This document shows, piece by piece, positions 1,949-49,407 of a DNA stretch of 50,316 nt. The translations under genes were made by a program, and so were the position numbers. Under the pieces are notes generated by a model. It had not been told where the DNA came from. It saw only the letters and a program-made list of their open reading frames with translations, and ran no database searches. Source of the stretch: Methanosarcina sp. (GTDB taxonomy: Archaea > Halobacteriota > Methanosarcinia > Methanosarcinales > Methanosarcinaceae); assembly GCA_003164755.1 (NCBI GenBank), contig PLUB01000083.1, positions 1 to 50,316 of the forward strand, in the 5' to 3' direction. Within the stretch, counting starts at the first letter, position 1; each line of letters begins with the position of its first letter.

Positions 1949-2039
1949 GAGGATTTAGATAAATTCCTATATTTATTTATATGCTTATAAATATCATATT
2001 AATGACTCATGAAAATCAGAGGTTTATCGAAATTCTCTT
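1949..2039 (-). repeat. Family-1 palindromic repeat, copy 1 (upstream of galU)
   Basis: Left arm GAGGATTTAGATAAATTCCT; right arm ATCAGAGGTTTATCGAAATT. The core is AT-rich with TTTATATG and CTTATAAAT. It ends 57 bp before the galU start, so galU transcription may begin in it. The asymmetric block next to the arm (CTCATGAAAATCAG) places this copy in the minus orientation relative to the copy at 43725. Confidence 0.75.
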
Positions 2040-2096
2040 AAATCAGCTATGAGAATAATAGTTTCACATGATTTTCTTTTTAACTGAGGGTTCATT

Positions 2097-2987
2097 TTGA
2101 GAGTTAAAAAAGCACTTATCCCAGCAGCTGGCCTTGGAACCAGATTCCTACCGGCCACCAAGTCAATGCCAAAGGAAATGCTTCCAATCATTGACACTCC
2201 TGTGATACAGTATGTTGTAGAGGAAGCTATAGATTCCGGAATCAAAGATATCATAATTATTACAGGTCGGGGTAAAAGAGCAATAGAAGATTATTTCGAC
2301 GATTCTCCTGAGCTTGAAATGTATCTAACACAAAGAAATGACACTGAACTCCTTAAACTGGTCAGGGACGTTTCTTCACTTGTGGATATCCATTATATCC
2401 GTCAGAAAGAACCAAATGGGCTTGGAGATGCAGTCCTCAGAGCAGAAAAACATATCGGAGATGAGCCTTTTGCTGTGCTTCTAGGGGATGATATCATTGT
2501 GAATGACAAACCCTGCACTGCCCAACTCATTGAGAATTTCGAAAAATATGGGAAATCTATTATCGCAGTCGAAGAAGTTTCTTATGAAAAACTGAGCAGT
2601 TATGGGATTATAAAAGGAAAATTTATTGACGATTCACTTTATTTACTTGAAGACATTATCGAAAAACCATCCCCTATGTCTGCTTTTTCAAATATAGGGG
2701 CAGTTGGTCGTTATGTATTCACCCCTGAAATCTTTGATTGTATAAGGAGTGCGGGAACAGGGTTCAAAAGCGAAATTCAGCTTACAGATGGAATCAGACT
2801 CCTGAATAAATCTCAGAAAATATATGCTTACAAGTTCAAAGGAACAAGATTCGATATCGGAGACAGACTAGGATACATAAAAGCAATAGTAAATTTTGCC
2901 ATTAAAAACGAAAATCTGAAAGAAAACATAATTGAATACATGAAAGAAATCCTCGAAATTGAAAAGGAGACGGAAACGAAATTATAA
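2097..2987 (+). CDS. galU: UTP--glucose-1-phosphate uridylyltransferase
   Basis: Makes UDP-glucose from UTP and glucose 1-phosphate in the cytoplasm, feeding surface polysaccharide and glycoprotein synthesis. 296 residues, normal for the family. The N-terminal nucleotide-binding signature is intact (KKALIPAAGLGTRFLPATKS, then PKEMLPIIDTP); further motifs are GLGDAVLRAEKHIGDEPFAVLLGDD (uridylyl-transfer site) and a C-terminal FDIGDRLGY. The start is TTG at 2097, since the conserved N-terminus begins there and GAGG precedes it. No operon partner exists: both sides are IS debris and repeats, so the gene is isolated. The bacterial-type GalU family is common in methanogens. Confidence 0.95.
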   Translation: MRVKKALIPAAGLGTRFLPATKSMPKEMLPIIDTPVIQYVVEEAIDSGIKDIIIITGRGKRAIEDYFDDSPELEMYLTQRNDTELLKLVRDVSSLVDIHYIRQKEPNGLGDAVLRAEKHIGDEPFAVLLGDDIIVNDKPCTAQLIENFEKYGKSIIAVEEVSYEKLSSYGIIKGKFIDDSLYLLEDIIEKPSPMSAFSNIGAVGRYVFTPEIFDCIRSAGTGFKSEIQLTDGIRLLNKSQKIYAYKFKGTRFDIGDRLGYIKAIVNFAIKNENLKENIIEYMKEILEIEKETETKL

Positions 2988-3288
2988 TTAAGTATTAAGA
3001 GAGTCAAATATCCTTTATTCTAAAATCGGTTAGATTTATTGAATTTTTGCACACTATATATCTATTTGTTCTCTTAGATGGTCTATATCGTTCTACACAG
3101 GGTAATTATTATATTTTTAATCTCGTATTTTATCTATAGGGTAAATATTTATATCTGTTGACTCTGACCTTCTGCAAATTTATGACAAATTTGTTAATTT
3201 TCGTATCAATATATTAATAGACAAAGTGCAGAATTTTTTTTCGGATTTTCTTATGTTTGCCACAATACATTCTTTTGATAATCAATGA
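2988..3288. other. Gene-free AT-rich stretch after galU
   Basis: About 300 bp of very AT-rich DNA with no supported gene. Several T-rich runs (for example 3232-3242) could terminate galU transcription in the archaeal manner, but no particular site stands out. Confidence 0.25.
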
Positions 3289-4270
3289 GTCTTTTCTGGC
3301 ATTTGTGATGAACCTGAAATTGAAAAAGTGATTGATGAAGTGATGTTCAAATTTGGGCAGCACAAATTAACTCACGACTTGTTGATCCTGGAATGTGCAT
3401 CTACTCTTAATGATACTGTGTCTAGACGAACCCTTGATAGATTCATGAAGAAAAATTTACTCAACTTTGCATGAAATTTGCCTTGTAAATGATGGAAATT
3501 GTCAATATCAAAACTCAACTTCTAAATTGTGGCACCACAGCTTTTATAATTTTTAGAGACTACAAAAATATCGATGGCAAATCTCCATTGAAATTACATA
3601 AGGAAGATTTTGATAAATCCCTATTTTTTATAACATCTTTATGAATAATATCTAAACCATGAAAAATCAGAAGTTTATTGAAATCTTCTATGGTCATGCA
3701 AAAGACATTAAAGATAAATGTCAGCGTTTTGAGTTTAAAATAATCACAAATCAGTATTTATCCAACTATTTCAAAGGCTTAATCCTGCAATGCATCAGAC
3801 AAAGAAACATAGACTGGAACTTATAAAAATACTCTGGGACATATACAGTCTAATGGCGATGTTTTCTGCATAGTTGATATCGCTATATATCCTGAAAAGA
3901 ACATCAAATCAATAAGAAAAGAAATGGAATTGAGAACTCGTATCTCTTAAACACTCAATATTTCCAAAAAATTTGTTGGCATTTGATATTGGGTTCAAAT
4001 AGAAAATGGATCCAAGATATTAATTTTACGAAACTATTGTTAAATATGGTGCTATCAAACAAAAAGGGTAGTCACTCAACTCCACAGATATGCAAAAAAA
4101 GGGAATTACTTATGAAAAAAAACTCAAGAGAATGATTACGGAATCTTAGAAAGATCTCAAAGAACTAAAGAATATAAAGTTTGCCTGTGAAAAGGATTTC
4201 AAAGCTCTACTGATCCGGTATGAAATAGGATTAAGAAACTGTCGAATAAAAAAGAAATTTATTAATAAAT
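3289..4270 (+). pseudogene. IS1634-family transposase remnant, split by a family-1 repeat
   Basis: Broken frames resemble IS1634-type transposases. 3289-3474 reads VFSGICDEPEIEKVIDEVM..., like the N-terminal 'agiCdelglve.id' region. About 3850-3960 reads DVFCIVDIAIYPEKNIKSI, like the 'VADAALYSEENLK' catalytic block. About 4090-4240 reads KKGITYEKKLKRMITES then KFACEKDFKALL, like the conserved E/K-rich segment with FACEKDA. There are many stops and frame changes. A family-1 repeat (3603-3688) lies in the middle, so it probably inserted into the element. The N-terminal assignment is weaker than the central one. Confidence 0.6.
3603..3688 (-). repeat. Family-1 palindromic repeat, copy 2
   Basis: Left arm GAAGATTTTGATAAATCCCT and right arm AGAAGTTTATTGAAATCTTC are near-perfect complements, with an AT-rich core (TTTATAACATCTTTATGAAT). 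It sits inside the IS1634 relic, between the N-terminal and central coding remnants. Confidence 0.75.
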
Positions 4271-4572: not shown

Positions 4573-4661
4573 AGAGAATTCGATATACTCCAAATTTCTT
4601 CAAATACTTATAAATAATGTTTAAATATTTCATAAAAATCAGAGGTTTATCGAAATCTGTT
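4573..4661 (-). repeat. Family-1 palindromic repeat, copy 3
   Basis: Right arm ATCAGAGGTTTATCGAAATC matches the family well; the left arm (AGAGAATTCGATATACTCC) is degenerate. The core has ACTTATAAATAATG. It lies directly upstream of the small frame at 4691. Confidence 0.65.
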
Positions 4662-6180: not shown

Positions 6181-6250
6181 CCCACTTCCAGAAGATGTGC
6201 ACAAAAATACCAGCTGATTTCTCAATATTGCAGTAGCTTAAAAACAAACA
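6181..6250 (+). repeat. Family-2 repeat, copy B (5' part)
   Basis: CCCACTTCCAGAAGATGTGC starts the element; ATTTCTCAATATTGCAGTA and CTTAAAAA follow, as in the better copies. It leads directly into IS110 relic sequence. Confidence 0.55.
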
Positions 6251-6299
6251 TGAAATTCTTCGAACAACAACCTTAATTAAATGAAAGTGTCATCCACCT

Positions 6300-7335
6300 T
6301 TTTTTTTTGAAAATTGAATCCATCGTTATTTTAGCTAGGGAGTTTGTTCTAATTTTGGTTATCAAATCAGTCTAAATAATCTTCAATGACTCGACAGCTA
6401 ATGTTAAAATTTGTTTTGATTACGGTTGTTAAATTGGCTTTTTAGCCGATTTCACTGCCTCAAAAAAAGAATTTATCAAAAATAATCGAAAGAGTAAACA
6501 GTCTTGTGGTTTAGACATTTCCAAACTCTCTTCCATTGCTAATATCCTCAGCATATGCAGTGGAAAGCAGCATCAATTTTTAGCTAGAGATTATGGATTT
6601 TTAGCCCCTAAAAGTTGGAGCATATAAGAAAAATGTGACGTTTCTACATCTGAATTAACAAGCAATTTTTTGGTATCCATTTTATAATTCATCGATAAAG
6701 ATCTCACTGCTATAGTTGGAAATGCACAATATATAAAGGTATTTCTACACAAAAAACAGATAAGATGATCTGTAAATCATTGAAGGAATTGCACTCAACA
6801 ACATGATTCAGGTATCAAGGGTTTTTCCCAAAAGATCATAAAGAATTTCGTTTATACATTTGGATTCGCCATAAACTTGTACCAAAAAAAATCTATATCT
6901 AAAATGAAGCTTGCCCTATTCTCGTACCTAAAATATTTAATTTAAATGATGTGCTGACAGATATTTTTGGCAAAAAAGGTATAGTAATTATTTCAGGAAT
7001 CTCTTCCTGGAAGGCCGTCAACCAAATCATAGAAAGCATTTTCCCAAAATGTTCGTGATAAAGGTATTCTGATAAGATGAACCAGGGTCTGAAAAATATC
7101 TAAATCGTTGCTTTAAAGCTTCAAACACCTCTATACTATATGAACCACCTCGTCGATGAAATCGAATGTTTGGAAAAAGAAATGTATAATTCTACTTATG
7201 AAATTAAATTTGAGATAAAGTTTATAATATCGGTCCAAGATATTGGGAAAATTGGTTCAACAACTTGAATTGTTGAAATAGGCAATAACAAGAATTTTCC
7301 TTCAGGGATAGGTTTGTTTCATTGCTTGTAGTATT
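6300..7335 (+). pseudogene. IS110-family transposase remnant, nearly full span
   Basis: Successive broken frames follow an IS110 transposase in order: around 6650-6780 'TAIVGNAQYIKVFLHKKQ' (like 'vvvNA.hvKnvpGrKTD'); around 6820-6900 'FFPKDHKEFRLYIWIRHKLV' (like 'fvPd..ireLR.ltR.R.kLv'); 6930-7060 'LNDVLTDIFGKKGIVIISGI' (like 'l.svlsdvfG.sg..ileal'); 7140-7310 'MNHLVDEIECLEKEM...IISVQDIGKIGSTT' stop 'IVEIGNNKNFPSGI'. There are many stops and frameshifts. The 3' 170 bp are nearly identical to the inverted copy at 1670-1850. The 5' part (6250-6700) is paralogous to 15690-16160. Confidence 0.75.
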
Positions 7336-7564
7336 TCCAAATTTGCACTTATCTAATGATAAATTATACAAATGTGTACTCACAAAAAGAGGATAAGAGG
7401 TATAAAAGGGGAAAGCTTTTTTGTGTTTATTTTTTCTCGTGTTTATTCAACGCCAATTGACTTAAATATACATGTTTATATCTAGAATTGTATATATAAT
7501 TGATATTGATTGTTACTATTACTATCATTTTTATAATATAAGGATTCCCTCGTAAGTTTACTGA

Positions 7565-7655
7565 GGGGATTTCGGTAAATCTCCTATTTTCACCAGCCAT
7601 TTATATACAATTTATACGACTACGACAAAATCGAGGGTTTATCAAAATTTTCTTT
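7565..7655 (+). repeat. Family-1 palindromic repeat, copy 4 (upstream of leuA)
   Basis: Left arm GGGATTTCGGTAAATCTCCT, then TTTTCACCAGCCATTTATAT, then right arm GAGGGTTTATCAAAATTTTC. The core contains TTTATATACAATTTATA. It lies about 240 bp upstream of the leuA-type gene with no other gene between. Confidence 0.7.
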
Positions 7656-7890
7656 GGTTAACTAAAAACTGAAAACACTATGGTACATATGTTTAAGAGG
7701 AGTTCTCAAAGATTCCTACATAAATTTGGATATTTTTAGGAAAAGCTGGGTTTCTGAGAAAAGATATATGTAATATGTGATAATAAAATTGCCTATGTGA
7801 AATAGGATCAAATAATATATCAAACAAATTATATTATTTTCTCATCTCGCAGAATAAATTTATCGTAAATAAATTCAAGATTGAGGGATT

Positions 7891-9375
7891 ATATTATTCG
7901 AAAACATCCAATTTCTGGATACTACTTTGAGAGATGGTGAACAAACACCTGGAGTAGCACTGACAAGGGAGAAGAAGCTCTTAATTGCTCGGGCCCTTGA
8001 TGATATGGGAATATCGGTAATTGAGGCAGGTTCTGCGATCACTTCCGCAGGTGAGAGGGAATCTATTAAGGCTGTCGCAAATGAAGGACTGAATGCCGAA
8101 ATTTGCAGCTACTGTAGAATTGTAAAGAGGGACATTGACTATGCTCTTGAATGCGACGTTGACTCCATCCACCTAGTAGTACCGGTTTCAGATCTGCATA
8201 TAAGGACGAAGATCAAAAAGGATCGAGATGCAGTAAGGCAGATAGCTATAGGGGTAACTGAGTATGCCAAAGACCATGGACTTGTTGTGGAACTGAGTGG
8301 AGAAGATGCTTCTCGAGCAGACCTTGGATTTTTAAAAGCTCTGTATGAAGATGGGATGGATGCAGGCGCTGAAAGGTTATGTTTCTGCGATACTGTAGGC
8401 CTTCTGGTGCCTGAAAGAACGACTGAAATTTTCCAAGATTTTTCTTCTTCGCTTAAAGCACCTCTAAGCATTCACTGTCACAATGATTTTGGTCTAGCAA
8501 CTGCAAACACCGTTGCTGCCCTTGCGGCAGGGGCAAAGCAGGCCCATGTAACAGTAAACGGTTTAGGGGAAAGAGCCGGGAATGCATCCATGGAAGAAGT
8601 GGTCATGAGTCTGGAATGGCTCTATAAATATAATACAGGTATCAAGCATGAGATGATCTATAGGACTTCAAGGCTTGTAAGCCGTCTTACAGGAGTGTCT
8701 GTATCTCCGAATAAGGCTCTTGTAGGTGGGAATGCATTTACTCATGAAGCAGGCATTCACGTCCATGGTCTCATTGCCGACAAGTCAACCTACGAGCCCA
8801 TGAACCCCGAATATATCGGACGACAGCGCCAGATAGTACTAGGAAAACATGCCGGTCGAAGCTCTATTACCCTTGCCTTAAAGGAAATGGGTCTTGAGGC
8901 TGATGAAGTACAGACAGAAGAGATTTTCAACAGAGTCAAACAGCTTGGTGACCAGGGGAAACATATAACTGATGCTGATTTGCAAACTATCGCGGAAATT
9001 GTGCTTGATATTTATAGGGAGCCCCTTATTAAATTAGAAGAATTTACTATTGTATCCGGAAACAAGGTGACTCCAACTGCTTCCATAAAGCTTAAAGTGA
9101 ATAATAATATCATTGTAGAGGCTGGAATAGGGAACGGGCCTGTAGACGCTGTAATCAACTCCATCCGAAAAGCTGTAAGTTCCTGTGCTGAAGATATTAT
9201 CCTCGAAGAATATCATGTGGACTCAATCACTGGCGGAACCGATGCCCTTGTGGAAGTAAGGGTAAAACTTTCCAAGAATGGGAAGATGATCACTGCAAGC
9301 GGGGCCAGAACGGACATAATCATGGCCTCTGTGGAGGCTGTAATGAATGGCATGAACCGCCTTATCAATATCTAG
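7891..9375 (+). CDS. leuA: 2-isopropylmalate synthase (or citramalate synthase), LeuA family
   Basis: Condenses acetyl-CoA with a 2-oxo acid in leucine (or, as CimA, isoleucine) synthesis. About 490 residues. The DRE-TIM metallolyase barrel comes first: DTTLRDGEQTPG, metal-binding HCHNDFGLATANTV, and NGLGERAGNASMEE. A C-terminal regulatory LeuA dimer domain follows from about residue 375 (VTPTASIKLKV...GNGPVDAVINSIRK...ARTDIIMASVEAVMNGMNRL). Its presence argues against homocitrate synthase. Start is uncertain: FENIQFLDTTLRDGEQ is clearly coding, yet between the in-frame TGA at 7882 and the TTG inside 'TTLRD' (7927) there is no ATG, GTG or TTG. GAGG lies at 7883-7886, so a rare start (ATA 7891, TTA 7894) or a mutated start is implied. 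Stops are TAG-TGA in tandem. ilvB follows. Confidence 0.85.
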   Translation: MLFENIQFLDTTLRDGEQTPGVALTREKKLLIARALDDMGISVIEAGSAITSAGERESIKAVANEGLNAEICSYCRIVKRDIDYALECDVDSIHLVVPVSDLHIRTKIKKDRDAVRQIAIGVTEYAKDHGLVVELSGEDASRADLGFLKALYEDGMDAGAERLCFCDTVGLLVPERTTEIFQDFSSSLKAPLSIHCHNDFGLATANTVAALAAGAKQAHVTVNGLGERAGNASMEEVVMSLEWLYKYNTGIKHEMIYRTSRLVSRLTGVSVSPNKALVGGNAFTHEAGIHVHGLIADKSTYEPMNPEYIGRQRQIVLGKHAGRSSITLALKEMGLEADEVQTEEIFNRVKQLGDQGKHITDADLQTIAEIVLDIYREPLIKLEEFTIVSGNKVTPTASIKLKVNNNIIVEAGIGNGPVDAVINSIRKAVSSCAEDIILEEYHVDSITGGTDALVEVRVKLSKNGKMITASGARTDIIMASVEAVMNGMNRLINI

Positions 9376-9667
9376 TGAGTTACAGAAAAGATGGAGCCTA
9401 AAAATTTCTCATGGGGACTTTTACATTCCCTCTTTTTTCTGCTGTAGAAATTTTTGAAATAATTAACTCCATATTTTTTGGAGTAAGAGGGGGCCAGTAT
9501 CCGTATGTATCACGATTGATTATGATGTATTTGCAAAATTCAAAACAAAAGATCGTGAGTTTGAGATAAAAAAGTATTTCTGGTAAATAGGCACTAAATT
9601 AAAGCATACTCACTCTCTAGATCATCAAGTCAAATTAACATTTTGAAAATATCTACAGGAGTTTATA
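9376..9667. other. leuA-ilvB intergenic region
   Basis: A pyrimidine-rich tract (9427-9440) after leuA may end its transcript. A small hairpin, ACTCCA/TGGAGT at 9466-9484, lies in the middle. AGGAG precedes the ilvB ATG. No short leader peptide of branched-chain codons, and no riboswitch known to me, is visible. Confidence 0.3.
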
Positions 9668-11362
9668 ATGACAACCGGGTCAGCAGAAAAAATCAATGGT
9701 GCAAAGGCTCTGATAAAATGCCTGGAAAAAGAAGGTGTTGATATCCTCTTTGGATATCCAGGAGGGCAGATAATCCCCTTCTATAATGAACTTTATGATT
9801 CAAACATGCGCCACATACTTGTACGACACGAACAGGCAGCAGCTCATGCTGCGGATGGTTATGCCCGTGCTACTGGAAAGATCGGGGTTTGCGTTTCAAC
9901 CTCAGGTCCCGGAGCGACTAATCTGGTAACTGGCATTGCTACTGCATATATGGACTCAGTACCTATTGTAGCTTTAACAGGCCAGGTTCCAACTTCCATG
10001 ATCGGTAATGACGCTTTCCAGGAAGCAGACATTACGGGAATTACCCAGCCCATTACTAAACACAACTATCTCGTACAGGATGCAAAAGAACTCCCAAGGA
10101 TCTTAAAGGAAGCATTCCATATCGCTTATACCGGAAGACCTGGTCCGGTATTAATTGATCTTCCAAAGGACATTCAGAACACGGAAATTGATTTTTATTA
10201 TCCTGAAAAGGTAGAAATGAGAGGGTATAAGCCCACTTACAAGGGAAATATTCAGCAAATCAAACGCGCTGCTGAAGAAATTTTAAATTCCTCAATGCCC
10301 GTAATTTACGCAGGTGGGGGGGTGATCAGTTCCAATTCCAGCTGTGAACTTGTGGAGTTGGCCGAAACTATAAATGCTCCTGTTACGACCACACTTATGG
10401 GAATAAGTTCAATCCCAACAGATCATCCTCTATATATCGGAATGCTTGGAATGCACGGAAGCAAATACGCTAACTATGCAGTTCAGGAATCCGATCTTAT
10501 CATTGCTGTGGGTGCAAGGTTTGATGACCGAGTGACTGGAAAGCTTGAATCCTTTGCTCCCAATGCAAGAGTTATTCATATTGATGTTGACCCTGCTGAG
10601 ATTTCCAAAAACGTGAAGGTTCACATTCCAATTGTTGGGGATGCAAAACAGGTACTAAAGTCCCTGAATAAATATGTTAAACGCTGCAATTCCGAAGCTT
10701 GGATTGAAAAGATAAACAAGTGGAAAAAGGAGTATCCTCTTACCTATAAGCAGATGTCACCAGATGGTGTGATGCCTCAATTTGTTATCGAGCAAATATC
10801 CAAAGTCTGTAATGATGCAATCATAGTTACGGAAGTTGGACAGCACCAGATGTGGGCAGCTCAGTACTTCAATTACAGAAAGCCCCGCACTTTCATTACA
10901 TCAGGTGGTCTGGGTACAATGGGCTATGGATTTCCTGCAGCCATGGGGGCCAAAGTTGGTAGGCCTGATAAAACTGTTATTGATATTGCCGGAGACGGCT
11001 CTTTTCAGATGAACTCTCAGGAACTTGCAACTGTAGTTCAGAATAAAATCCCTGTTGTTGTCGTGATCCTGAATAATGGTTATCTTGGCATGGTCAGGCA
11101 GTGGCAGGAACTCTTCTATGAAAGACGGTATTCCTGTACATTCATCAAAGGAAGTGTCGATTTTGTGAAGCTGGCTGAAGCTTATGGAGCCCTTGGATTG
11201 CGCGCAGAAAGACCATCTGAAGTTGGGCCTGCAATTGAGGAAGCTGTTAGGTCAGGCAGGCCTGCTGTTGTGGATGTGATAGTTGAGTGCGAGGCAAATG
11301 TTTATCCCATGGTGCCGGCAGGGGCTGCAATAAATGAGATACTTGACCAGGTGGAACACTGA
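9668..11362 (+). CDS. ilvB: Acetolactate synthase, large catalytic subunit
   Basis: ThDP/FAD enzyme that joins two pyruvates (or pyruvate and 2-oxobutanoate), the first common step of valine, leucine and isoleucine synthesis. 564 residues, full length. N-terminal domain: [15 protein letters not shown], the catalytic glutamate in [19 protein letters not shown], and [13 protein letters not shown]. The middle domain, from about residue 190, has the FAD-binding [19 protein letters not shown]. The C-terminal ThDP motif is [12 protein letters not shown]...[16 protein letters not shown]. Start ATG 9668 is preceded by AGGAG. The stop TGA overlaps the ilvN start (ATGA), so the two subunits are translationally coupled. 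Confidence 0.97.
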
Positions 11363-11847
11363 TGAAACACACGCTTGCAGTTCTTGTGGAAAATAAGTCA
11401 GGAGTTCTCTCCAGGGTGGCTTCACTTTTCTCCAGGCGTGGATACAATATTGACAGCTTAGCGGTGGGGGTTACGGAAGACTCCGATATTTCCAGAATAA
11501 CAATTGTTGTTCATGGAGATGACCATGTCCTTGAACAGGTTACAAAGCAGCTGAATAAGCTAGTAGACGTGATCAAAGTTTCGGATATAGGAGGAGAGGA
11601 CACTGTAGAAAGGGAACTTGTTCTCATCAAAGTTGCAGCTAATGTGGATACAAGAGCTGAAATTATACAGATTGCAGATATATTTAGGGCAAAGATAGTG
11701 GATGTGGCCCCCAAGTCAATGATTGTTGAAGTAACTGGAGATGAAAGCAAGGTTCAGGCAATCAAAAAGCTCCTCCGCCAATTTGGGATCAAGGAAATGG
11801 TTAGGACAGGCAAGATTGCCCTTATCCGCAGCCCAAAGAAAGATTAA
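11362..11847 (+). CDS. ilvN: Acetolactate synthase, small regulatory subunit
   Basis: Binds IlvB, activates it and usually mediates valine feedback inhibition. 161 residues, the standard length. An N-terminal ACT domain ([32 protein letters not shown]) is followed by the second ferredoxin-like domain ([20 protein letters not shown] ... [14 protein letters not shown]). The start overlaps the ilvB stop by one base (ATGA). ilvC lies 376 bp downstream, with a family-1 repeat in the gap. Confidence 0.96.
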
Positions 11848-12063
11848 ATAGCAAGAGCAAGTAAAGGAGTTAGCTGCATAATTATTTGTCAAAGATTTAG
11901 GCAGTCTGAAGCCTTTTAATTTCCTGCAAATCTTCACTAATAGCAAGAATGGATTTTCAGGCCTATCTTGAAGCTTCAAAATGCTGTCTTTACCAACAGA
12001 AAGAAACTTTTAATCAGCTTAAATCAATTTAATTTTCAGGAAGGTTAATGTATTAGATATATG

Positions 12064-12154
12064 GAGAAGATTTCGATAAGCCTCTGATTATCATGAGTCA
12101 TTAATATACTATTTAAATCATATGACTAAATTTAGAGGTTTATCGGAATTATCT
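12064..12154 (+). repeat. Family-1 palindromic repeat, copy 5 (upstream of ilvC)
   Basis: Left arm GAAGATTTCGATAAGCCTCT and right arm AGAGGTTTATCGGAATTATC are complementary over about 18 bp. The core carries TCATGAGTCATTAATATACT and CATATGAC. It ends 70 bp before the ilvC start, so it sits where the ilvC promoter should be and separates ilvC from ilvBN. Confidence 0.8.
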
Positions 12155-12223
12155 CGAATATGTCCCAAAATAATATGAGGAATTCTGCTCAAAAACTAAA
12201 TAATTTTTCAGGGGAATCAAGCA

Positions 12224-13845: not shown

Positions 13846-14048
13846 CTCAGATTATAGATGGCTGAAACACATGTGAGTAACTGGGTGAATTCCCAGACTA
13901 AGCTCCTGGAAGATTTTCTTTTTTAACTGCACTCCGTGAAAACACATTATTCCATTAAGGATTAAATTTATAAGCCATTTAACATTATAATCAGCTAATT
14001 GAATGCAGTTTGTCTGTCAGTTAACTTGTTCAAATTTTTTCACAATGA

Positions 14049-14309: not shown

Positions 14310-14534
14310 ATGATTCGTGGATTAGATCGTCGCTTCCTGTGTGTTGGGATAAAGAGGCTCTCTTTGGTCCAATTAATTGTTATAGCATTTGATACTGTAC
14401 GTCCTGATACGGATACTTTTGCCGCTTTTGTGGTTGCTCATTTTGATCATGGCTTTGATTTTGCTACTAAAAGTCGCGCTGGAAAATATTTAGAGGACTT
14501 TGATAAACTCCTAGATTTCATCCTATTCTTATAA
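14310..14534 (+). CDS. Hypothetical small protein (doubtful)
   Basis: A 74-codon frame starting ATG after GGAGAGGTTATAA (possible ribosome site). The sequence (LIVIAFDTVRPDTDTFAAFV, then ATKSRAGKYLEDFDKLLDFI) matches no family I know. It lies in a 680-bp gap between the tRNA and the methyltransferase gene. The Shine-Dalgarno-like GAGAGG gives slight support; it could be a gene fragment. The remaining gap, 14121-14309 and 14535-14803, shows nothing else. Confidence 0.25.
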   Translation: MIRGLDRRFLCVGIKRLSLVQLIVIAFDTVRPDTDTFAAFVVAHFDHGFDFATKSRAGKYLEDFDKLLDFILFL

Positions 14535-14803
14535 CAGGTATATTACATATACAACAGGATGTTTAATTGTGGATTCAAAGTAGACATCAAGAGATCTACT
14601 GACATTTAGGTATGTTTAAATATCAACCGAATAAAAATGGAAGGCCAAAAAATAAGATTTAAGCACTTAAGGTCCAAAATCAAGCACAACATACTTTGTG
14701 GATAAATCAGTAGTTCAGATATTTAGATTTTTAATGCTGTTTGTTTCAAGTTCAACTGCGTAAGTCCAGAGAAATAAACAAAAATTCTCAAAACCGGTAT
14801 GTT

Positions 14804-15578: not shown

Positions 15579-15689
15579 ACTATCATTATTTTCAAGAATA
15601 AAATCCTATTTGATGTTTACTCTGAGGGAGTCACAATCTCGCTCTCAAGTATTTTTCGTCTCAAATTCTATATTCCATAAAATTAAATA

Positions 15690-16165
15690 TGAAGTTCTTC
15701 GAATAAAAGGCTCAAATTAATGGAAGTATTTCTCAATTTACTTCTTTTGAACATTGATTTCATCTTTATTTTGGGTAGGAAGTCGGTTCTAATTTTGGTT
15801 TTCAATAAAGTCTAGAAACGAATCAGTGGATTGCTATAGAAGGCTCAAATGTGACTTGATTAAGGATGTCAAATTGGTTTTTTAGGCAATACCACTGCCC
15901 AATTAATTGGTGATTCAAATTGGTAGAAGCAGTGAACAAGGCTTGTGATTTGAATATTTACAAAAGTTTTTTCCATTCATACCATTCTCTGAATACCAGT
16001 GAAAAACAGCAGCAAAGTTTCGTTAGAGATGATTATGGTATTTTAGCCCTAAAAAGTGAGGTTATATCAGAAAAATGTGGTGCTGTTAAATGTGAATCGT
16101 CAAGTGATTTTTAGGTTCCTGTTTATGGTTCATTGGCAAAGAATCTACCTATTATAATTTTATAC
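15690..16165 (+). pseudogene. IS110-family transposase remnant (5' half)
   Basis: Aligned by eye with 6250-6700, the same blocks appear in order: GAAGTTCTTCGAA, TGATTTCATCTTTATTTT, GGTTCTAATTTTGGTT, GAGATGATTATGG.ATTTTAGCCC and ATCAGAAAAATGTG. The relic ends near GTTCATTGGCAAAGAATC, where the 6250 copy continues into recognisable IS110 coding. A 64-codon open stretch at 15920-16114 is part of it and not a separate gene. Confidence 0.6.
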
Positions 16166-16877: not shown

Positions 16878-17213
16878 TACAACTCACAATATATTTTCTA
16901 CAATCAACCTGTATATAAGATCTTGTTAATAAAATAGAATAAGTTTTAAAAGTCATAGGTCTTTATTCCAGCAAGATATTCCATGAAACTTATGGCCTGG
17001 ACGGAATTACAAGATGAATATATTGCTGATAATTTTTAGAGTTTTGAAGACTGATTTATCACAGTTACCTGACATATCAGTTTTGGACTCCAATATAAAT
17101 ATCTCAAGAAATAATCCTAAAATATATAAACGATAAAGGTATAGGGTATTCGGTCCTTAGCGACTCTACATGGGAGTAATAATATATTTAGCAGTCATAA
17201 TCATGATATTATA

Positions 17214-17305
17214 GAAGATTTCGATAAACCTTCAATTTTCACGAATCATTTTATACATCATTTATATGCACATAACGAAATTCAGAGATTTATTGAAATT
17301 TTCTA
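17214..17305 (+). repeat. Family-1 palindromic repeat, copy 6 (upstream of DUF2551 gene)
   Basis: Left arm GAAGATTTCGATAAACCTTC, then TTTTCACGAATCATTTTATA and TTTATATGCACATAACGAAA, then right arm CAGAGATTTATTGAAATTTT. It ends about 55 bp before the CTG start of the next gene. Confidence 0.8.
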
Positions 17306-24450: not shown

Positions 24451-26022
24451 GGATAACCCTTATTCTTAAAAGATAGATTTTGTTTGGTATCAGTAGAGTA
24501 AAAAAAGTCATCTTACTTTTAAGGAAACTGATCTTCTATAACCTTGGTTTGAACAGGTGGTAAATTTATCTTACCTGTTATTTTCGTATATCTAATAATA
24601 ATGAAGGCCATAACCAAGAATGATAATTTCCTTGGTATGCTTGATAAAGCCAAATAATTGTATTTAAGACGATGTTTGATACTTGACATTCAAGTTAAAG
24701 AACCTCAAAGATATCGAGGAAAGAAAATGGCATTTTTTAATAAGTTTGAATCAAATAGTTTTGTTGATTCCTGATAATACGAAAAATATGTCGCTCGAGA
24801 AAGTTGAAATCTCTCATTAAATAATTGTAATTCATCTTAAAGCGTTGGATTTGTGAGAATAATTCAGGATGGCTTCAAAAAATGAAGATCAGCAATATTT
24901 GGTCACAAATCTATTGGATATATCTGAATTCGGGAGAAAAAACTGGCTAAAAAGTCCGGAAAATTGAAGCATACAATATAAAAATAAAACAGTTATTTAA
25001 TGCTACAAAGCGCCAAGAACAGGAAAAAGTCAAAGATAATATACGTTATGTACTCATTGAGAGATTTTCATAATTTCGAATTGTGAAGATTAAAAAACTG
25101 GATTTTTTGGGGTAATACTTACGTAAAAATTAACAGAGTTCTGGTAGAATAGTATATATATAACTCAGATAACAACTAAAATTTCTTTAAATAATCCCGG
25201 AGTTGGGAATTACATTGTTCAGGGCCCGAAACTGCCTAATTTCTACTTTAATGGATAATATTCTTTAAACGAAACTTTTAGCTCCAGATTAATATCTTTT
25301 TCTCTAGATTAACTCGCTTGTTTTATACCTTAGACTCGTATGCCTCCCAATTTCTAAAGCAGGTTGATATCTTTCAGGTTCTTTTGTATTATCCAGGATA
25401 CAATCTGATATTTTCGGTTTTATGAATAATTTAGGCAAAAAAGCCCTTGATCATGGCGCTTGTGTTACCTGAGCAAATTATATCATTTTATCCTTTTTCC
25501 TATCTTATGATATTAATCAGGGTTTTATGAAATATATAATTGTTTTTTTATGGGAAGACTTTTTAAGCCCTGAATACATGCAAATATGGATTTTATAGTT
25601 TACATGTGCTCATAGAACCCTGAATAAACTTTAAAGAATATTTAGATCAACTTCCGATTTTCAAGAGTTATTATGCCCCTGTTCAGATCTGTATTTATTT
25701 TTCCAAAATTAATCAACTCTCTTAAATCAAATTTTAATTTTTGCTGAGAACTAATTTAAACAAAAAGTTTCTCCTCGATCGCATTTAAGCTATGGGTTTA
25801 TGGTAGATTATGAGACTCTAATAGCATCTATTAAGGCTACAATAAATAAGTTAGCAAATATCTACTTTGATCCAATATAGACTTCAATTATGAACTATCG
25901 GAAAAAACATTGTCAACCGTCGACAGTTAATGAAAAATGAGAAATCTTTGTATGGGATAAACTCTTACTTATTATTTAAGTCATCATATTTTGTTCACAT
26001 TAAATTAAATCATGTGTTAACT
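24451..26022. other. Long gene-free stretch
   Basis: No intact gene. Short coding-like scraps on the plus strand (about 24660-24770 LILDIQVKEPQRYRGKKMAF; about 24985-25065 IKQLFNATKRQEQEKVKDNI) may belong to another decayed element that I cannot assign. A 105-bp inverted repeat lies at 25518-25622. Confidence 0.3.
25518..25622. repeat. Short inverted repeat unrelated to families 1 and 2
   Basis: CAGGGTTTTATGA (25518-25530) and TCATAGAACCCTG (25610-25622) are complementary in 12 of 13 positions and enclose about 80 bp of AT-rich DNA. It could be a small palindromic mobile element or a structured transcript. One copy only in this window. Confidence 0.35.
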
Positions 26023-27730: not shown

Positions 27731-28110
27731 AATTTGAAAGATTTTCTTTCATGATTTTTTTTCTAAATTTGCTGTCTTAGTTTTATATATCTTTTATTTA
27801 ATCAAAGTTTTATGTTTAAGCTTTAAACTACCCACTCCTGAAAAAGACTAGTCATTATCTTTATCATTACATCTGAATCTAAGTTCACATATATGTGTTG
27901 AAAATAATTATATTTACATCTTTATAGTAACACAAGACGTCTAAACAGCGTTGAAAGTTATTTATTATCGAAGCTGTATTTTTCTTAAGAACATTGGCGT
28001 AAATTTAGACTAAGCAAAAAAATGGAAATTAAAACAAAAATGAAAATAAAAATCATTTTTCCAGTTTTCTTCAAATGTTTTCCGTGGTTATTGAATTTAT
28101 AGTGACTTAA
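27731..28110. other. Gene-free stretch after the glycosyltransferase
   Basis: T-rich runs just after the stop codon (27740-27765) could terminate transcription. Nothing else is recognised. Confidence 0.3.
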
Positions 28111-28200
28111 GGAGATTTCGATGCACTCTTAAATATAGTCCTATGCTTATAAATGGAATATAAATTAATCGTGAAAATCGGCAGTTTATGAAATACTCTA
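28111..28200 (-). repeat. Family-1 palindromic repeat, copy 7 (degenerate)
   Basis: Left arm GGAGATTTCGATGCACTCTT, core CTATGCTTATAAATGGAATA, then CGTGAAAATCGGCAGTTTAT and GAAATACTCTAC. Several arm positions have decayed. It sits at the 5' edge of the IS4 relic. Confidence 0.55.
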
Positions 28201-29189: not shown

Positions 29190-29835
29190 TAAAGAAAATC
29201 AACTCATAATTCCTGTTTATTATGCTATGAAGTTTATATCCAAAGTATGACTTCTCACCCTTTTTTGTCTAGGTTCCTTTGATGCTTATTTTTGTTTTGC
29301 TTCATTTTCTCGATTTTTATCCGCTTTTGCATATCCAGTATTCGAATAGATGAAAGTGGCGTCCCAAATAGTCCCTTTTTAATTAGCAAATCAAGACAAT
29401 TAAGTTAGTTTTGAAACTTTCACTCTATTTCTTCTTCTGTACAGTTATCAATAATTCTTTTCCTGAATAATCATACTATAGTACTGTTTGGTACTATACT
29501 CAGGAAAACCAAGGAATTCCTTGAACGAAATTCAATCAATACATTGTTTTTCAAGTTCAAAGTCTGAAAGACCATGCAATTGCTGTAAAACAAGCACTTC
29601 AAACATAATGATACTTTAGCTTTAGGTCAGCCTCCGGAAACTTTTTTTGTTAAAATATATGGAATCTAAAATGATACGAAAAGATTTCCAATCAATTAAG
29701 GAATCAAGTTCAACAAGTTTGTCTCAGACTGACTGAATAAGTTTGTGTTCTTCTTTAAAAATGAAACAAGTACAGATTTTTATTAATAAAAATTATTGTT
29801 CTGAGATTTAAATTATCCAATACTCAAATGTATAG
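29190..29835 (-). pseudogene. IS5-family transposase remnant (N-terminal side)
   Basis: The minus strand at 29265-29400 reads KKGLFGTPLSSIRILDMQKR, IKIEKMKQNKNKHQRNLDKK, like 'kgiiqDAtfi.sDPGhakadkpRg.eakTrrs.dGtw.kKg' of a Methanosarcina-type IS5 transposase. The rest (29430-29835) is homologous to 44285-44700 and 50100-50310, the 5' part of the element. Heavily mutated. Confidence 0.65.
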
Positions 29836-34268: not shown

Positions 34269-34323
34269 TTAAGAATTCTCAAATAAAATTAATGAAGTCT
34301 TACCACATGAATCAATAAGGAAG

Positions 34324-34410
34324 GCCTCGCTAAACCTCTGATTGCCCCAATTCATCCATATATAATTTGTAATCACATGACAAACTGTAGGAGTTAATCG
34401 AAATACTCAT
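34324..34410 (+). repeat. Family-1 palindromic repeat, copy 8 (degenerate)
   Basis: GGCCTCGCTAAACCTCTGAT on the left, core TCATCCATATATAATTTGTA and CACATGACAAAC, then GGAGTTAATCGAAATACTC on the right. Confidence 0.6.
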
Positions 34411-34597
34411 AAATAAATTTACTGTGTCTGTAGAAAAAGTAGAGTCATTTTTGATTATCAGAAATCAATCACTTCATTACCTTAAATAATCTTTCTCGAT
34501 ACTTTTTTTATTTGCATTAATGGTGCAGAATTACGAGATTTGGAACTACTTAACTAGCAAATAGTATATAGTAAAAGGTTTCTATATAATTTATATA

Positions 34598-34686
34598 GGA
34601 TTTTGATAAACTTATAATTTTCACGAATTATTTATATATAATTTATAATCACATGACAAAATTTAGGAGTTTATAAAACTATTTTA
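34598..34686 (+). repeat. Family-1 palindromic repeat, copy 9 (upstream of lon)
   Basis: GGATTTTGATAAACTTATAA on the left, core TTTTCACGAATTATTTATAT and CACATGACAAAATTTAGGAG, then TTTATAAAACTATTTT. It is a close relative of copy 8, 190 bp away in the same orientation. Confidence 0.65.
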
Positions 34687-39834: not shown

Positions 39835-40140
39835 GATAGTGATTATAACAAAAAAATATCACACAACATCTTCAGATTCACTCTTTGAGTAGTAATAACA
39901 AGAACTTTTCCTGCTTTGAATATCTCTTTTGTTACTGCATAAACTAGTTTCTTTGGAGCTCTTTTTGAGCTGATCCTCTTGTTTCTTAATACATCAGTTA
40001 TTCCCAGATGATATTCTTTTACTGCTCTTTTCATTTTTGCATCATAACCTTTTGATTTTGCTCCAAAGTATTCTCTGTCTCTATGAACCACTTCATTTTT
40101 TCTGATAACTCTACATACGAATGCAATCGTTTTTTACTCA
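39835..40140 (-). pseudogene. IS5-family transposase remnant (C-terminal part)
   Basis: The minus strand reads VVHRDREYFGAKSKGYDAKM, KRAVKEYHLGITDVLRNKRI, SSKRAPKKLVYAVTKEIFKA, GKVLVITTQRVNLKMLCDIF: the DDE-domain end of a Methanosarcina-type IS5 transposase ('RDrGYFGakprGydAtMkRavrghpLgi.d.lRNkRIs.kRapgErpYAviK.vf.aghv.VTTv.RV.vKm'). The N-terminal two thirds are missing, so it is inactive. The same region, more decayed, is at 49570-49860. Confidence 0.85.
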
Positions 40141-40591
40141 ATAACCAGATTATACATCCCATATTTTTTTCAATTCATGAGGTATTTGTTTGCCAAATTA
40201 GCTTATTAGATCCACTTTTTTATTTGTTCAAATGAGATATATTCTTAGCCCTGATACAAAATTGTAATAATATTGAAAAACTGTTCTCAGTCCTTAGCGT
40301 ATGTTCAAGAGGACTTCGATTAATCCTAAATTTCATCGTATGCGTATTAATTGTATACAAATAACTCTTGAAGATCAAAGATTTATTTAAATCCTTAATT
40401 ATTTTTATGCCAATATTTGAACGCTACATCGTAACCTCACTATACATGAGATTCAAAATTATGCATAATAATCGTTGAACGGTGAAGAATGATTATCACA
40501 CAAATTATTTTGGATCTACCCCTGATCTTTATCAATGAAGAAAAGGAAAAAGGTATTAAGTTACTGAGGTTATTACCTATATTTTAGAGAA
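40141..40591. other. Gene-free stretch with a weak family-1 repeat
   Basis: At 40308-40400, AGAGGACTTCGATTAATCCT and GAAGATCAAAGATTTATTTA look like worn family-1 arms around an AT-rich core. Otherwise nothing is recognised. Confidence 0.4.
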
Positions 40592-43724: not shown

Positions 43725-43815
43725 AGAGGATTTCCATAAATCTCTGATTTTCACAAGTCAATTATATCCAATTTATAAGCATATGACGAAATAAGGGGTT
43801 TATCGAAATCCTCTA
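43725..43815 (+). repeat. Family-1 palindromic repeat, copy 10 (best preserved)
   Basis: Left AGAGGATTTCCATAAATCTC, TGATTTTCACAAGTCAATTA, core TATCCAATTTATAAGCATAT, right GGGGTTTATCGAAATCCTCT. The arms pair over about 20 bp. It is a good reference for the family's forward orientation. Confidence 0.85.
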
Positions 43816-44284
43816 CAAATAATAAATCTGGATTGTTATAAAATACGCTTCAATGATACATAAAAATATTGATGTGTGAAATTGACTTAATGAAATTGTA
43901 AAAAGCAATATTAGTCTTGATTGAAAAATTGGCTCTAAATAATAATTTTTACTATTGTAAACTTGTTAGATCGAAAAAAGAGATCAAATTTATTTAATTT
44001 GACACAATTAGGAAAATAATTATTTTTGTTTTAGTATGAAAATATGGGAGTACGAATATCATATCCTACCACGATGATCTAATTTCGAAGTAATCCATAT
44101 TTGCTGTAGTTTCAAATGATTATTCTTATTATTTCACAATTCTTCCGATATGGTTCACAAGAAAAAAGATTTACCCATACATATTAAGAGAATAAGAGGA
44201 TTACTATTTAAATGTAATTTTTTTTCTTATTGGCAAGCCTATCTATATCTTTCTCACTAATTTCTGTATTTGATACTATTTTTT
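43816..44284. other. Gene-free AT-rich stretch
   Basis: Nothing recognised. Confidence 0.25.
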
Positions 44285-44700
44285 TTCTTTACAGTTATCA
44301 ATAATTCTTTTTCTGAATGACTAAGCCGTTGTCCTTTCTTGTATGTACTCAGGAAAACCAATAAATTTCCTGAAAGGAATTTAATCAATACATTATTCTC
44401 AAGTTCAAAGTTGAAAAGACCATGCTATTACTACAAAACGAGCATTTTTAATCATAAAGGTGACATCATCTTCAGAGTCCAGCTTCGGAAATTGTTTTGT
44501 TCAAAGATATGGACTTATAAATAATACGAAAAGAATTCTAATCAATGAAGGAATCAATTTCAGTCAATTTGCTTACAACTAACTGAAGAAGTATTTATAG
44601 TTCTTTACGAACAAAATTAGTACGAATTTTCATGAATATAAATTAATGTTAAGAGATTTTAGCTCTCAAATGTTCAAACGCATAGAAATTTAGAGAAATT
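44285..44700 (-). pseudogene. IS5-family element remnant (5' part)
   Basis: Homologous base by base with 29430-29835: TACAGTTATCAATAATTCTT, ACTCAGGAAAACCA, CAATCAATACATT, TCAAGTTCAAAGT, AAAGACCATGC, ATACGAAAAGA. No intact frame. It directly abuts the IS256 relic. Confidence 0.6.
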
Positions 44701-44702: not shown

Positions 44703-45715
44703 CGACAGTGTACCGAAAGTTTCATCAAAATATATTGACTCTGCATTCTTTTTTACCACAAAAAAGGTGCAGAATCAATGATTAATATCTTTTCACTCAA
44801 AAAAGATTATCTTATCTCTCAGGAAGATGGAATTCACCATATAATTACTTGGTTTTTAAATCTTGTAATGAAATATGAAGATCTTATTCAATTTAGTGCT
44901 AAACGTCATGATAGGACTGATTTCAGAAAAGATCGTAAAATTAGCTACAAATCTCTAACTGTTTGAGAAGTATTCCATAGTTGAAAAAACATCCTAATAG
45001 ATGTATCTGAATCTTACTTGCAAGATGTCTCCACCGAAGGAGGGGGTCTATCATGACTGTTTTTGAGTAGGTGCTACCTCAGCCTCTTATGTTTACAAGA
45101 TTACTGAATAACTGGATGAAAAGGTTGAAGAATTTCTCTATAAACGAATCTAACAAGAAATTCTTTATTTTCTTATTGATGCTACTGATTATAAGATAAC
45201 AGGTGGGCTTCACTATGAAAAATAAGTTTTCTTTGTAGATGCTAGGATAAGGGGATAATAGTTACTTTGGGATTCGTAGAACATTCAATAATTTTAAAGA
45301 CTCTTTTTTCTGGAAGATCCTTGCGATGATCTAGATGAAAGATATTTATGAGGTGTCAAGTTAATCTTTTATTATGGACGCAAAGGAGTACGAAAAACAA
45401 TACGGGGGTCCTTTTTTGAATCCAGCTGGCAGAACTATCGCTGACATCTGATCAGGTTCTTAAAAAGGTGCCAACAAAGAAGCAAAAGGAAGTGGCTGAG
45501 GAGATAAAAAGAAGCATTGATGGCTTGTCAGAAACTTTATGATCTTATTAGAAAATGGATGACCTATGGGATAAAATAGCAAGTTATACGTTTTAGGGCC
45601 TCAGATCCAATACAATGAACAAGGTGCAATTTCCAGAGAATCATTGGTAAAAAATAAGAACAATAAGACACAAATAAAGAATGGATAATAGGAAACAAGT
45701 GGTATTAAAAATCTC
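44703..45715 (+). pseudogene. IS256-family (mutator-type) transposase remnant
   Basis: Broken frames run collinear with an IS256 transposase. 44778-44960: MINIFSLKKDYLISQEDGIH, HIITWFLNLVMKYEDLIQFS, AKRHDRTDFRKDRKISYK (like 'eR...RkgyRNGYK'). About 45060-45240: SASYVYKITE, LDEKVEEFLYKRI, ILYFLIDATDYKITGGLHYE (like 'YLflDAtYyKiReg..v', first catalytic Asp). 45450-45530: LKKVPTKKQKEVAEEIKRSI (like 'lrkvPkkkqkevae.lk.i'). Stops and frameshifts throughout. Near its start GACAGTGTACCGAAAGTTTC could be the left end. Confidence 0.8.
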
Positions 45716-45723
45716 GAAAAACC

Positions 45724-45797
45724 TTAGATCTCAACAAATTGATTATATACGGTTCATAAACAACCAGCCACAAATTGGAGTTTATCGAAATCTTCTA
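45724..45797 (+). repeat. Family-1 repeat, copy 11 (left arm lost)
   Basis: TTGATTATATACGGTTCATA, AACAACCAGCCACAAATTGG, then a good right arm GGAGTTTATCGAAATCTTCT. It lies at the 3' edge of the IS256 relic. Confidence 0.55.
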
Positions 45798-48100: not shown

Positions 48101-48521
48101 TACTGTCACCTGAGAATCTATTACATCTATTAACCTATTCTAAATCAAGAGTTTTTTGATGGATTAGATTGATTAATACTAATAAAGCAGATATTTGAAA
48201 GCTTCATATTGTGGAGGTATTCGAAAATTTGACGTTTAAAGAAAATGAAGATTTAGCAGATTGAGATCATCAATATACGAAGTCATTAAACAGCATTATA
48301 ACCTTTTATATGGGAGGATCTTATACCTAACTATTAAAACTTACAGAAAAATTCCGGTATGTTTTTTGAAGCACAGGAGATTTTGAAATCTGGAAAATTT
48401 TTGTGTCTTAATGTTTCGTGGAAACACCCAATTAGAATTATGAATAACTACTGATGCATTAAGGAGGTTATTCTTAGGAAAATTTAGGCTGGTTTGAACA
48501 TAAATTTAATTACACGGTCCA
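48101..48521. other. Gene-free region between purN and glyA
   Basis: About 420 bp without a frame. It probably holds a separate minus-strand promoter for glyA-folD. Confidence 0.25.
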
Positions 48522-49127
48522 TTAACCGAATCCTACTGTTCTACCCTCAATTTTAAGTTTACCCTCGACAAAGAGCTTGACAGCTTCAGGGTAGATAATA
48601 TGCTCCTGTTCGAGGATTCTGGCAGTAAGAGTTTCTTCCGTATCCCCTTGGAGTACAGGCACACAGCTCTGAAGGATTATTGGGCCGGAATCCAGTCCTT
48701 CATCTACAAAGTGTATAGTACAACCTGTAATTTTTACCCCGTATTCGAATGCCTGCTTCTGTGCATGGAGCCCTTTGAAAGATGGAAGAAGAGAAGGATG
48801 AATATTTAGGATCCTGTTCCTGTATGCCTCAATAATTTCGGGTCCCAAAAGCTGGAAATAACCTGCAAGTAGAAGAAGGTCAATCTCATACTGTTTCAAG
48901 ACCACAAGTATTTTCAGATCATATTTTGCATTGTCACATCTACTCGGATCAAGGAAAACAGTGCTTATCCCATGATTCCTTCCTCTTTCAAGTGCATAGG
49001 CATCTCTCTTATTTGAAATAACCACATTGATTTCCGCATTCTTTACGTAACCATTTTCAATGCTGTTTATAATTGTCTGTAGATTCGAACCCCTTCCAGA
49101 AGCTAATACTGCAATCTTCACAACCAT
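48522..49127 (-). CDS. purN: Phosphoribosylglycinamide formyltransferase (10-formyl-THF dependent)
   Basis: Adds a formyl group from 10-formyl-THF to GAR in purine synthesis. 201 residues. KIAVLASGRGSNLQTIINSI, VVISNKRDAYALERGRNHGI, LLAGYFQLLGPEIIEAYRNR, and the catalytic triad region ILNIHPSLLPSFKGLHAQKQ (N, H) with the Asp in TIHFVDEGLDSGPIILQ. ATG 49127; GTG 49121 is possible. Many archaea use the formate-dependent PurT or other routes, so PurN is another sign of folate use here. A family-1 repeat lies about 145 bp upstream. Confidence 0.95.
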   Translation of the reverse strand: MVVKIAVLASGRGSNLQTIINSIENGYVKNAEINVVISNKRDAYALERGRNHGISTVFLDPSRCDNAKYDLKILVVLKQYEIDLLLLAGYFQLLGPEIIEAYRNRILNIHPSLLPSFKGLHAQKQAFEYGVKITGCTIHFVDEGLDSGPIILQSCVPVLQGDTEETLTARILEQEHIIYPEAVKLFVEGKLKIEGRTVGFG

Positions 49128-49271
49128 TGAAGCTTTTAGATTGGAACAATGATATATTAGAGTTTTGGAACTATGCGAGATATTTTAATGCAAATCGAAA
49201 CTTACAATATCATTAAAATAAGCAAAGATAATAAATGTATTTCTGGATGAAATATAATACTAAAATCAATT

Positions 49272-49407
49272 TAGAGATTTCCGATAAACTTCAAAATTTC
49301 ATCCTATATTTATAAATAATATGTAACATATACTATCTACTATATAACAAATGATATATAATGTATAACTTACTTGTGAAAATTGGAGATTTATCGAAAG
49401 CCTCGCT
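49272..49407 (-). repeat. Family-1 repeat, copy 12 (expanded core; upstream of purN)
   Basis: Left TAGAGATTTCCGATAAACTT, right TTGGAGATTTATCGAAAGCC. The core is about 45 bp longer than in other copies because of a run of TATATA/ATGTAACATATACTAT-like sequence. It lies about 145 bp upstream of purN. Confidence 0.7.

Follow-up and report, generated by a model that had tools for sequence, protein, structure and literature searches.

The DNA described here, referred to throughout as the window, is a 50,316-nucleotide stretch (bases 1-50316 of contig PLUB01000083.1) of a Methanosarcina sp. draft genome of 3.47 Mb in 124 contigs (assembly GCA_003164755.1, hereafter G000). It carries a family of dispersed short palindromes, together with four relics of a transposase gene of the IS5 family of insertion sequences (IS) (Table 1). 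An earlier note, made from the window alone, had listed about 13 of these palindromes as ~90-bp elements in both orientations and had read them as miniature inverted-repeat transposable elements (MITEs) or as sequences resembling repetitive extragenic palindromes (REPs). It proposed a profile scan with a copy count, a search for exact ends and target duplications and a comparison with the ends of full IS elements, and held that confinement to the window, or fixed positions without empty sites in all relatives, would speak against mobility. All these comparisons were made, and the elements are called MITEs in what follows.

A first alignment contained 12 of the 13 window copies (copy 49272 was omitted). 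A sequence-only profile, R1, was then built from 35 aligned copies, taken both inside the window and elsewhere in G000, seven of the 13 listed copies being in it. All 13 listed palindromes were recovered by R1 (E 1.7e-25 to 2.6e-9), including the six that lay outside the profile (4573, 28111, 34324, 40308, 45724 and 49272; E 6.3e-18 to 2.6e-9). The arm AGAGGTTTATCGAAATCTTC, allowing up to three mismatches, occurred 11 times in the window, compared with an average of 0.01 in 100 shuffles. Both orientations were indeed present, with seven plus and seven minus copies among the 14 window matches at E<=1e-3. The count of about 13 held, while a half copy (14492-14549) and a weak one (25635-25710) had been missed; the copy at 49272 is exceptional in size, at 132 bp.

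Table 1. MITE copies and IS5-family transposase relics in the window (R1, the 35-copy profile; G016, the sister genome).
Feature	Position	Strand	Evidence and remarks
MITE copy	1948..2038	-	R1 E 2.4e-23; also in G016 (alignment); abuts IS110-like remnant
MITE copy	3603..3689	-	R1 E 1.4e-12; also in G016 (alignment)
MITE copy, degenerate	4575..4658	-	R1 E 5.8e-17; not visible in matched, diverged G016 region
MITE copy	7564..7653	+	R1 E 1.6e-21; homology of relatives begins at 7651-7657, the inner edge of the copy
MITE copy	12065..12154	+	R1 E 8.2e-24; between ORF 11362-11847 and ketol-acid reductoisomerase gene (Pfam)
MITE half-length copy	14492..14549	-	R1 E 1.1e-8, model positions 35-92; absent from earlier list
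MITE copy	17213..17304	+	R1 E 1.7e-21; present in G016, empty in six relatives
Possible MITE remnant, weak	25635..25710	+	R1 E 0.0027
MITE copy	28110..28199	-	R1 E 6.8e-17
Broken IS5-family transposase relic	29197..29783	-	tblastn pieces 48% and 77%, E 7e-43; 14 stops over three partly overlapping pieces
MITE copy	34320..34408	+	nhmmer E 3.9e-11; R1 E 5.8e-14
MITE copy	34596..34684	+	R1 E 3.1e-19
Short IS5-family transposase relic, residues 216-298 only, no stop	39852..40100	-	tblastn 73%, E 6.5e-33
MITE copy	40308..40396	-	R1 E 6.3e-18
MITE copy, top score of window	43725..43814	+	R1 E 1.7e-25
Broken IS5-family transposase relic	44216..44633	-	tblastn 48-49%, E 3.4e-16, 6 stops
MITE copy, strongly diverged	45708..45796	+	R1 E 2.6e-9
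MITE copy enlarged by ~40 bp in the middle	49273..49404	-	R1 E 2.4e-10 over 132 bp
Broken IS5-family transposase relic	49525..50305	-	tblastn 31-65% in pieces, best E 1.2e-21

The family extends beyond the window. Copies were counted in a sample of 850 kb of G000, consisting of the window and 40 stretches of 20 kb chosen non-randomly from large contigs. At E<=1e-3, the limit of the count, nhmmer found 118 copies, 104 of them in the 800 kb outside the window and 14 inside it, whereas the same sequence reversed gave no match even at E<=1. Extrapolation gave a total of 451 copies in G000 (bootstrap 347-555), a figure of about 450 that is perhaps somewhat high, since several high-scoring copies lie on the sampled contigs; density in the window was about twice that of the other stretches. 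A BLAST search of G000 with one copy returned at least 54 matches (among the best 40 of 136 candidates) and a search with R1 at least 151 (among the best 150 of 5,674 candidates). Eighty-three of the 118 copies covered both model ends, and 45 of these measured exactly 89 bp, the remainder being 83-92 bp, so that the size given earlier can be corrected to 89 bp. On average, the 83 full-length copies were 81% identical to the single consensus, GAGGATTTCGATAAACCTCTGATTTTCACGAGTCATTTATATACnATTTATAAGCATATGACnAAATTTAGGGGTTTATCGAAATCCTC, derived from alignments of 12 and then 35 copies. The unit is short (<500 bp), has no coding capacity and bears inverted ends (GAGGATTTCGATAAACC...) in which 23 of the 26 outer positions are complementary, as judged from a consensus of the 45 copies of 89 bp.

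The flanks of the 89-bp unit carry a 4-bp target duplication. Among the 83 G000 copies covering both model ends, flanking 4-mers agreed at 0.64 per base, as compared with 0.48 in shuffles (z 7.3), while duplication lengths of 1-3 and 5-10 bp gave z values between -1.2 and 1.9. The duplication was exact in 22 of the 83 copies; the shuffles had a mean of 3.5, and the largest of 1000 shuffles reached 9. In a related complete genome (G001), inspection by eye of the 10 best-scoring of 20 places revealed nine exact duplications (TATA, TTTA, TGTT, TACA, TATA, TTTA, TACA, CTTG and TGTA). Two pairs of G001 copies at different sites, L104/L105 and L111/L113, were identical at 89 of 89 bases, and an 89-bp copy in G007 (L235) had TTCA on both sides.

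Insertion polymorphism was found at four sites. The first 19.9 kb of the window was compared with ten relatives, six of which were aligned at position 12065 and seven at 17213. The copy at 12065-12154 was absent between matched flanks in all six (G011, G012, G022, G008, G029 and G024). The copy at 17213-17304 was present in the sister genome, G016, and absent from the six others aligned (G011, G029, G008, G024, G012 and G001). At a second G000 locus, L218, the copy at 13928-14018 was present in G016 and absent from G011, and G016 lacked the copy at 12176-12265, the stretches aligned on either side of it being 91% and 94% identical. Beyond the sister genome, divergence of the flanks leaves the exact insertion points only partly clear. 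Three further candidates for empty sites were rejected: G016 has an N gap at L218:10152, and the flanks of window copies 4575 and 7565 are too diverged. The positions are thus not fixed in all relatives, there being four empty sites, despite the fact that eight of the 10 copies compared are common to G000 and G016.

MITE matches at E<=1e-4 were present in 25 of 59 whole genomes, G000 included. There were at least 72 in each of G000 and G016, 26-31 in each of G001, G015, G019 and G011, and 2-8 in each of 16 other Methanosarcina genomes, while eight genomes of the genus had none; outside the genus, three of 29 genomes had 2-4 weak matches. These counts may take both strands of one place (in G001, 36 matches correspond to 20 places). 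A 17-base arm of the G001 type, searched with at most one mismatch in the 30 genomes of the genus, gave 34 matches in G000, 22 in G016, 14 in G001, 11 in G015, 10 in G019 and one or two in seven others. Read backwards, the same arm matched once in G007, once in G011 and not at all in the other 28. The family is genome-wide in G000 and present in other members of the genus. The arm lies at identical coordinates in four G016 contigs and four records of Methanosarcina sp. fen_51 (PMJC01), which identifies G016 as that genome.

The probable partner of the MITE was found through arms that had no near partner arm in other genomes. It is a 1,151-bp element of G001 (L139:1878-3028) with ATTA on both sides, the ends GAGGATTTCGATTAACC and GGTTTATCGAAGTTCTC and an intact open reading frame (ORF) of 314 aa. 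Whereas the MITE itself has no transposase, the product of this ORF is an IS5-family transposase by its match to NF033581 (transpos_IS5_4; E 1.3e-65, 221.6 bits, cut-off 140), with the DUF772 and DDE_Tnp_1 domains also above cut-off. It has 3,268 relatives; among the 120 listed, named ones occur in Methanolobus, Methanohalobium, Methanococcoides and Methanosarcina siciliae, those at 78-80% identity being named IS5 family transposase (Methanolobus records) and one at 81% Transposase (M. siciliae). Comparison with this full IS element showed closely similar ends, those of MITE and IS being common over 17-26 bp. A 4-bp target duplication is a feature of an IS5 subgroup, and exact 4-bp duplications (TAAT and TTAG) flank two of the four intact copies.

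Transposase matches occurred in seven of the 30 genomes of the genus. The gene was intact in G001 (one copy), G019 (two) and G013 (one), and in pieces in G027 and G015. G000 had at least 69 matches (among the best 76 of 251 candidates) and G016 at least 44 (among the best 76 of 172), the long ones with several stops each. Every long copy found in these two genomes was broken; as the drafts are 92% and 73% complete, respectively, an intact copy could sit in the missing part. The sampled 850 kb of G000 contained 31 relic clusters, of which 12 measured 600 bp or more and, counted separately, seven had no stop; four lie in the window. The ends of the relics in G000 and G016 are GAGAATTTCGATAAACTTCTATGCATTTG and GAGnATTCCGATTTACCTCTAATTTTTTT and resemble the MITE ends, GAGGATTTCGATAAACCTCTGATTTT and GAGGATTTCGATAAACCCCTAAATTT; 19 left and 15 right ends were placed among 30 fetched IS loci by arm match, with up to five mismatches in 17. 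The seven genomes that had transposase matches also had more MITE matches than the remaining 23 (Mann-Whitney p 0.0016, uncorrected for kinship).

We conclude with high confidence that the 13 palindromes derive from an 89-bp MITE, of which they are decayed copies, and that this MITE duplicates 4 bp of its target and was probably mobilised in trans by an IS5-family IS with similar ends. The case for mobilisation by this transposase, drawn from sequence comparison, rests on the shared ends, the 4-bp duplication found with both elements and their co-occurrence. Several observations weigh against the explanation as a whole. An exact duplication is missing from 61 of the 83 G000 copies, and the tenth G001 copy has CTTA/TTTA; among the intact IS copies, L160 is flanked by TATA/TAAA and L165 has altered ends. 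Placement of the relic ends by arm match favours similarity; just two features are independent of it, the constant spacing between these ends and the gene and the sequence that they share further in. Similarity of MITE and IS is confined to the terminal 17-26 bp, and the MITE core was not seen in the IS ends, so that the MITE is not demonstrable as a deletion derivative of the IS. The test of co-occurrence ignores the relatedness of the genomes, and G011, with its 26-32 MITE matches (both strands counted), had no transposase match at E<=1e-20, which makes another or a lost partner possible there. A 294-bp element of G015 (L140:1691-1984) was considered as an intermediate between IS and MITE and rejected, since it is a copy of the 89-bp type whose right arm carries an insert of about 205 bp.

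Mobilisation by a transposase of another family, such as IS630/Tc1-mariner, appears very unlikely. MITEs of that group are flanked by a TA duplication, and many copies of the present family do lie between ...TA and TA.... Nevertheless, a 2-bp duplication scored only z 1.3 against 7.3 for 4 bp, and the ends CTTG and TGTT, which lack TA, are duplicated at G001 copies. Seventeen IS630 (DDE_3) loci were inspected in five of the six genomes searched, some of them cut by contig ends, and 15 had no arm within six mismatches in 22; of the others, L091 contains a complete MITE-like pair at a distance of about 760 bp from the domain, while in L096 one arm matches, with six mismatches. An 89-bp MITE of M. 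mazei has been assigned to ISMma9, an IS630 element (PMC3852290, Table 4), which speaks for this alternative. An IS630 partner was rejected on the length of the duplication and the 15 of 17 loci without an arm.

Slightly less credible still is the proposal that selection maintains the palindromes for a function, as sites or as RNA hairpins (protein-binding sites, terminators or promoters). The arms do pair, and the core contains two back-to-back TATA-like stretches that are found also in diverged subfamilies of G001 and G011. These stretches are, however, no better kept than other A/T columns (about 0.82 and 0.86 vs 0.85). RNAalifold gave no consensus pair among the copies, and Rfam had no match at them. 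In the 45 copies of 89 bp, changes on both sides of the arms that keep a pair numbered 20, compared with 18.2 (sd 3.3) in shuffles; all changes on both sides numbered 41, compared with 35.3 (sd 4.1), and paired arm cells 839 of 1035, compared with 834.5 (sd 4.8). An RNA hairpin was rejected as the arms do not covary. Nor do the copies evolve more slowly than their surroundings: in the eight copies common to G016, the element was 87.6% identical (621/709) and the flanks, which may include coding DNA, 91.6% (3556/3881). This comparison leaves out two of the 10 rows, where G016 shows either no element or an N gap; pooled with them, the values were 84.5% and 91.1%. Across MITE columns, A/T was kept at 0.85 and G/C at 0.68, with G>A and C>T the foremost changes, a pattern as in AT-biased decay.

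Gene context gave no sign of a function either. Only two of the 118 copies fell in ORFs of at least 100 aa, chosen by length and not by gene prediction, compared with 49% of random placements. Of the 116 copies outside ORFs, 21 lay at the ends of stretches; the 95 with two neighbours were divided into 28 divergent, 25 convergent and 42 co-directional positions, near the values for random non-coding positions, with no neighbourhood bias of the kind that promoters or terminators would show. The copies are decayed MITEs and not regulatory sites or RNAs. As for REP-like palindromes moved by a RAYT, a single-strand tyrosine transposase, which high copy number, intergenic location and palindromic form would suit, the chance is negligible, although no search was aimed at RAYT genes: REPs and bacterial interspersed mosaic elements (BIMEs), which have an associated RAYT gene, are short palindromes without target duplication, while the present 89-bp unit has 4-bp target duplications and ends common with an intact DDE element. 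Of the two types first suggested, then, the MITE stands, on the profile, count, ends, duplication, empty sites and matching IS, and the REP-like one falls.

The decayed-MITE interpretation implies the following course of events. Full-length IS copies would make an IS5 transposase recognising the ends common to IS and MITE, and this enzyme would move the MITE into 4-bp targets of TNNA type. Both elements would have multiplied in the common ancestor of G000 and G016; the transposase genes would then have died, and MITE and IS copies would have decayed neutrally afterwards. We infer that most amplification in G000 and G016 predates their split, from the broken IS copies and shared MITE copies and from the identity of 81% to the consensus, compared with about 88% between orthologues. 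In the lineage of G001 and G019 the system is likely to be recent or still active, judging from the intact transposase genes and the identical G001 copies at different sites. A bolder account would be a MITE burst to about ten times the archaeal numbers quoted in PMC10969869, followed by the death of all helper transposases, with a live helper and freshly moved copies in a cousin lineage, and with the AT-rich core and its two TATA-like boxes possibly turning each insertion into a two-way promoter, by which adjacent genes were rewired until the copy decayed; we regard this combination as improbable.

MITEs are already known in Methanosarcina. Kamoun et al. (2013; PMC3852290) report copy numbers of 5-24 for MITEs found in M. 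mazei, M. barkeri and M. acetivorans, some of which have an IS5 element as partner; Table 4 there lists elements of 140 bp (ISMma12, IS5, 24 copies), 252 bp (ISMac15, IS5, 12 copies) and 147 bp (ISMba19, IS5, 5 copies), and the 89-bp element of M. mazei (ISMma9, 5 copies) with no duplication. The present family resembles these in genus, in being non-coding, in having inverted ends (15-17 bp in those elements) and a likeness to an autonomous IS that does not go beyond the borders, and in the IS5 partners found among them. It differs in its copy number, about 450 against 5-24, and in its 4-bp duplication, the three IS5 entries having duplications of 3, 0 and 0; the 1,151-bp partner is unmatched to any ISfinder name, ISfinder not being readable. 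The 89-bp M. mazei entry, which could be compared by length and description only, may belong to the present family under a different partner assignment, since copies of the 89-bp unit are found in G007 and other relatives.

High-copy MITEs elsewhere, as quoted in PMC10969869, include ERIC (711 copies in Photorhabdus luminescens), Correia (>120) and SM1-SM4 of Sulfolobus (25-44). Like them, the present family is short, intergenic and non-autonomous, with a copy number that varies by lineage. Its numbers are about ten times those of the archaeal MITEs quoted there and, unlike the high-copy MITEs of that source, it has a probable partner, which survives intact in one lineage of the genus and is dead in another. 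In the literature consulted, with ISfinder and most subscription papers outside reach, there was no description of the 89-bp family, its partner, its copy number or a history of burst then extinction. The family is notable for its copy number and its visible life cycle. It offers a natural history of one archaeal MITE family, with empty sites, a probable partner that is live and identical copies in new places, alongside a lineage with a dead partner and hundreds of decaying copies. Methanosarcina includes genetically tractable species, so that trans-mobilisation of an archaeal MITE is directly testable. For annotation, the dense repeat of G000 is explained and nearby pseudogenes are flagged as IS5 relics.

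Some further observations concern the surroundings of the copies. In the window, a LeuA-like gene, a gene for a three-domain thiamine pyrophosphate enzyme (likely acetolactate synthase) and a ketol-acid reductoisomerase gene lie in a row (7927-13231), and the 12065 MITE is inserted before the last of them. A 284-bp element on a Methanomethylovorans contig from a metagenome-assembled genome (L100:1760-2043), flanked by TATA and TACA, has ends that match the 89-bp family, the same ends thus occurring in another genus. The ~205-bp insert in the L140 copy of G015 is bounded by TACCAAAATC...GATTTTGGAA and may itself be a MITE, nested within the other.

Other mobile DNA was also present. Coverage of the sampled 850 kb by ORFs of 100 aa or more is only 49%, which is low for a prokaryote, and the many IS relics suggest an abundance of decaying mobile DNA in G000. 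Another IS is represented in the window by decayed copies at 6241-7402 (+) and 1483-1948 (-), each next to a MITE copy, with many similar copies in G024 and other genomes; from inspection of the translated C-terminal stretch, we take its transposase to be of IS110 type. The shorter of the two remnants ends where the MITE at 1948 begins. Window positions 15689-16159 represent another repeat or IS family, with matches at seven G015 places (about 74% identity) and further ones in G024, G016 and G029. A second repeat family, of about 415 bp, occurs in opposite orientations in G000 (L218:6536-6950 and 18086-18500) with dozens of matches in G016, and a repeat of about 350 bp (L196:6955-7307) has several G016 matches at 83-86%.

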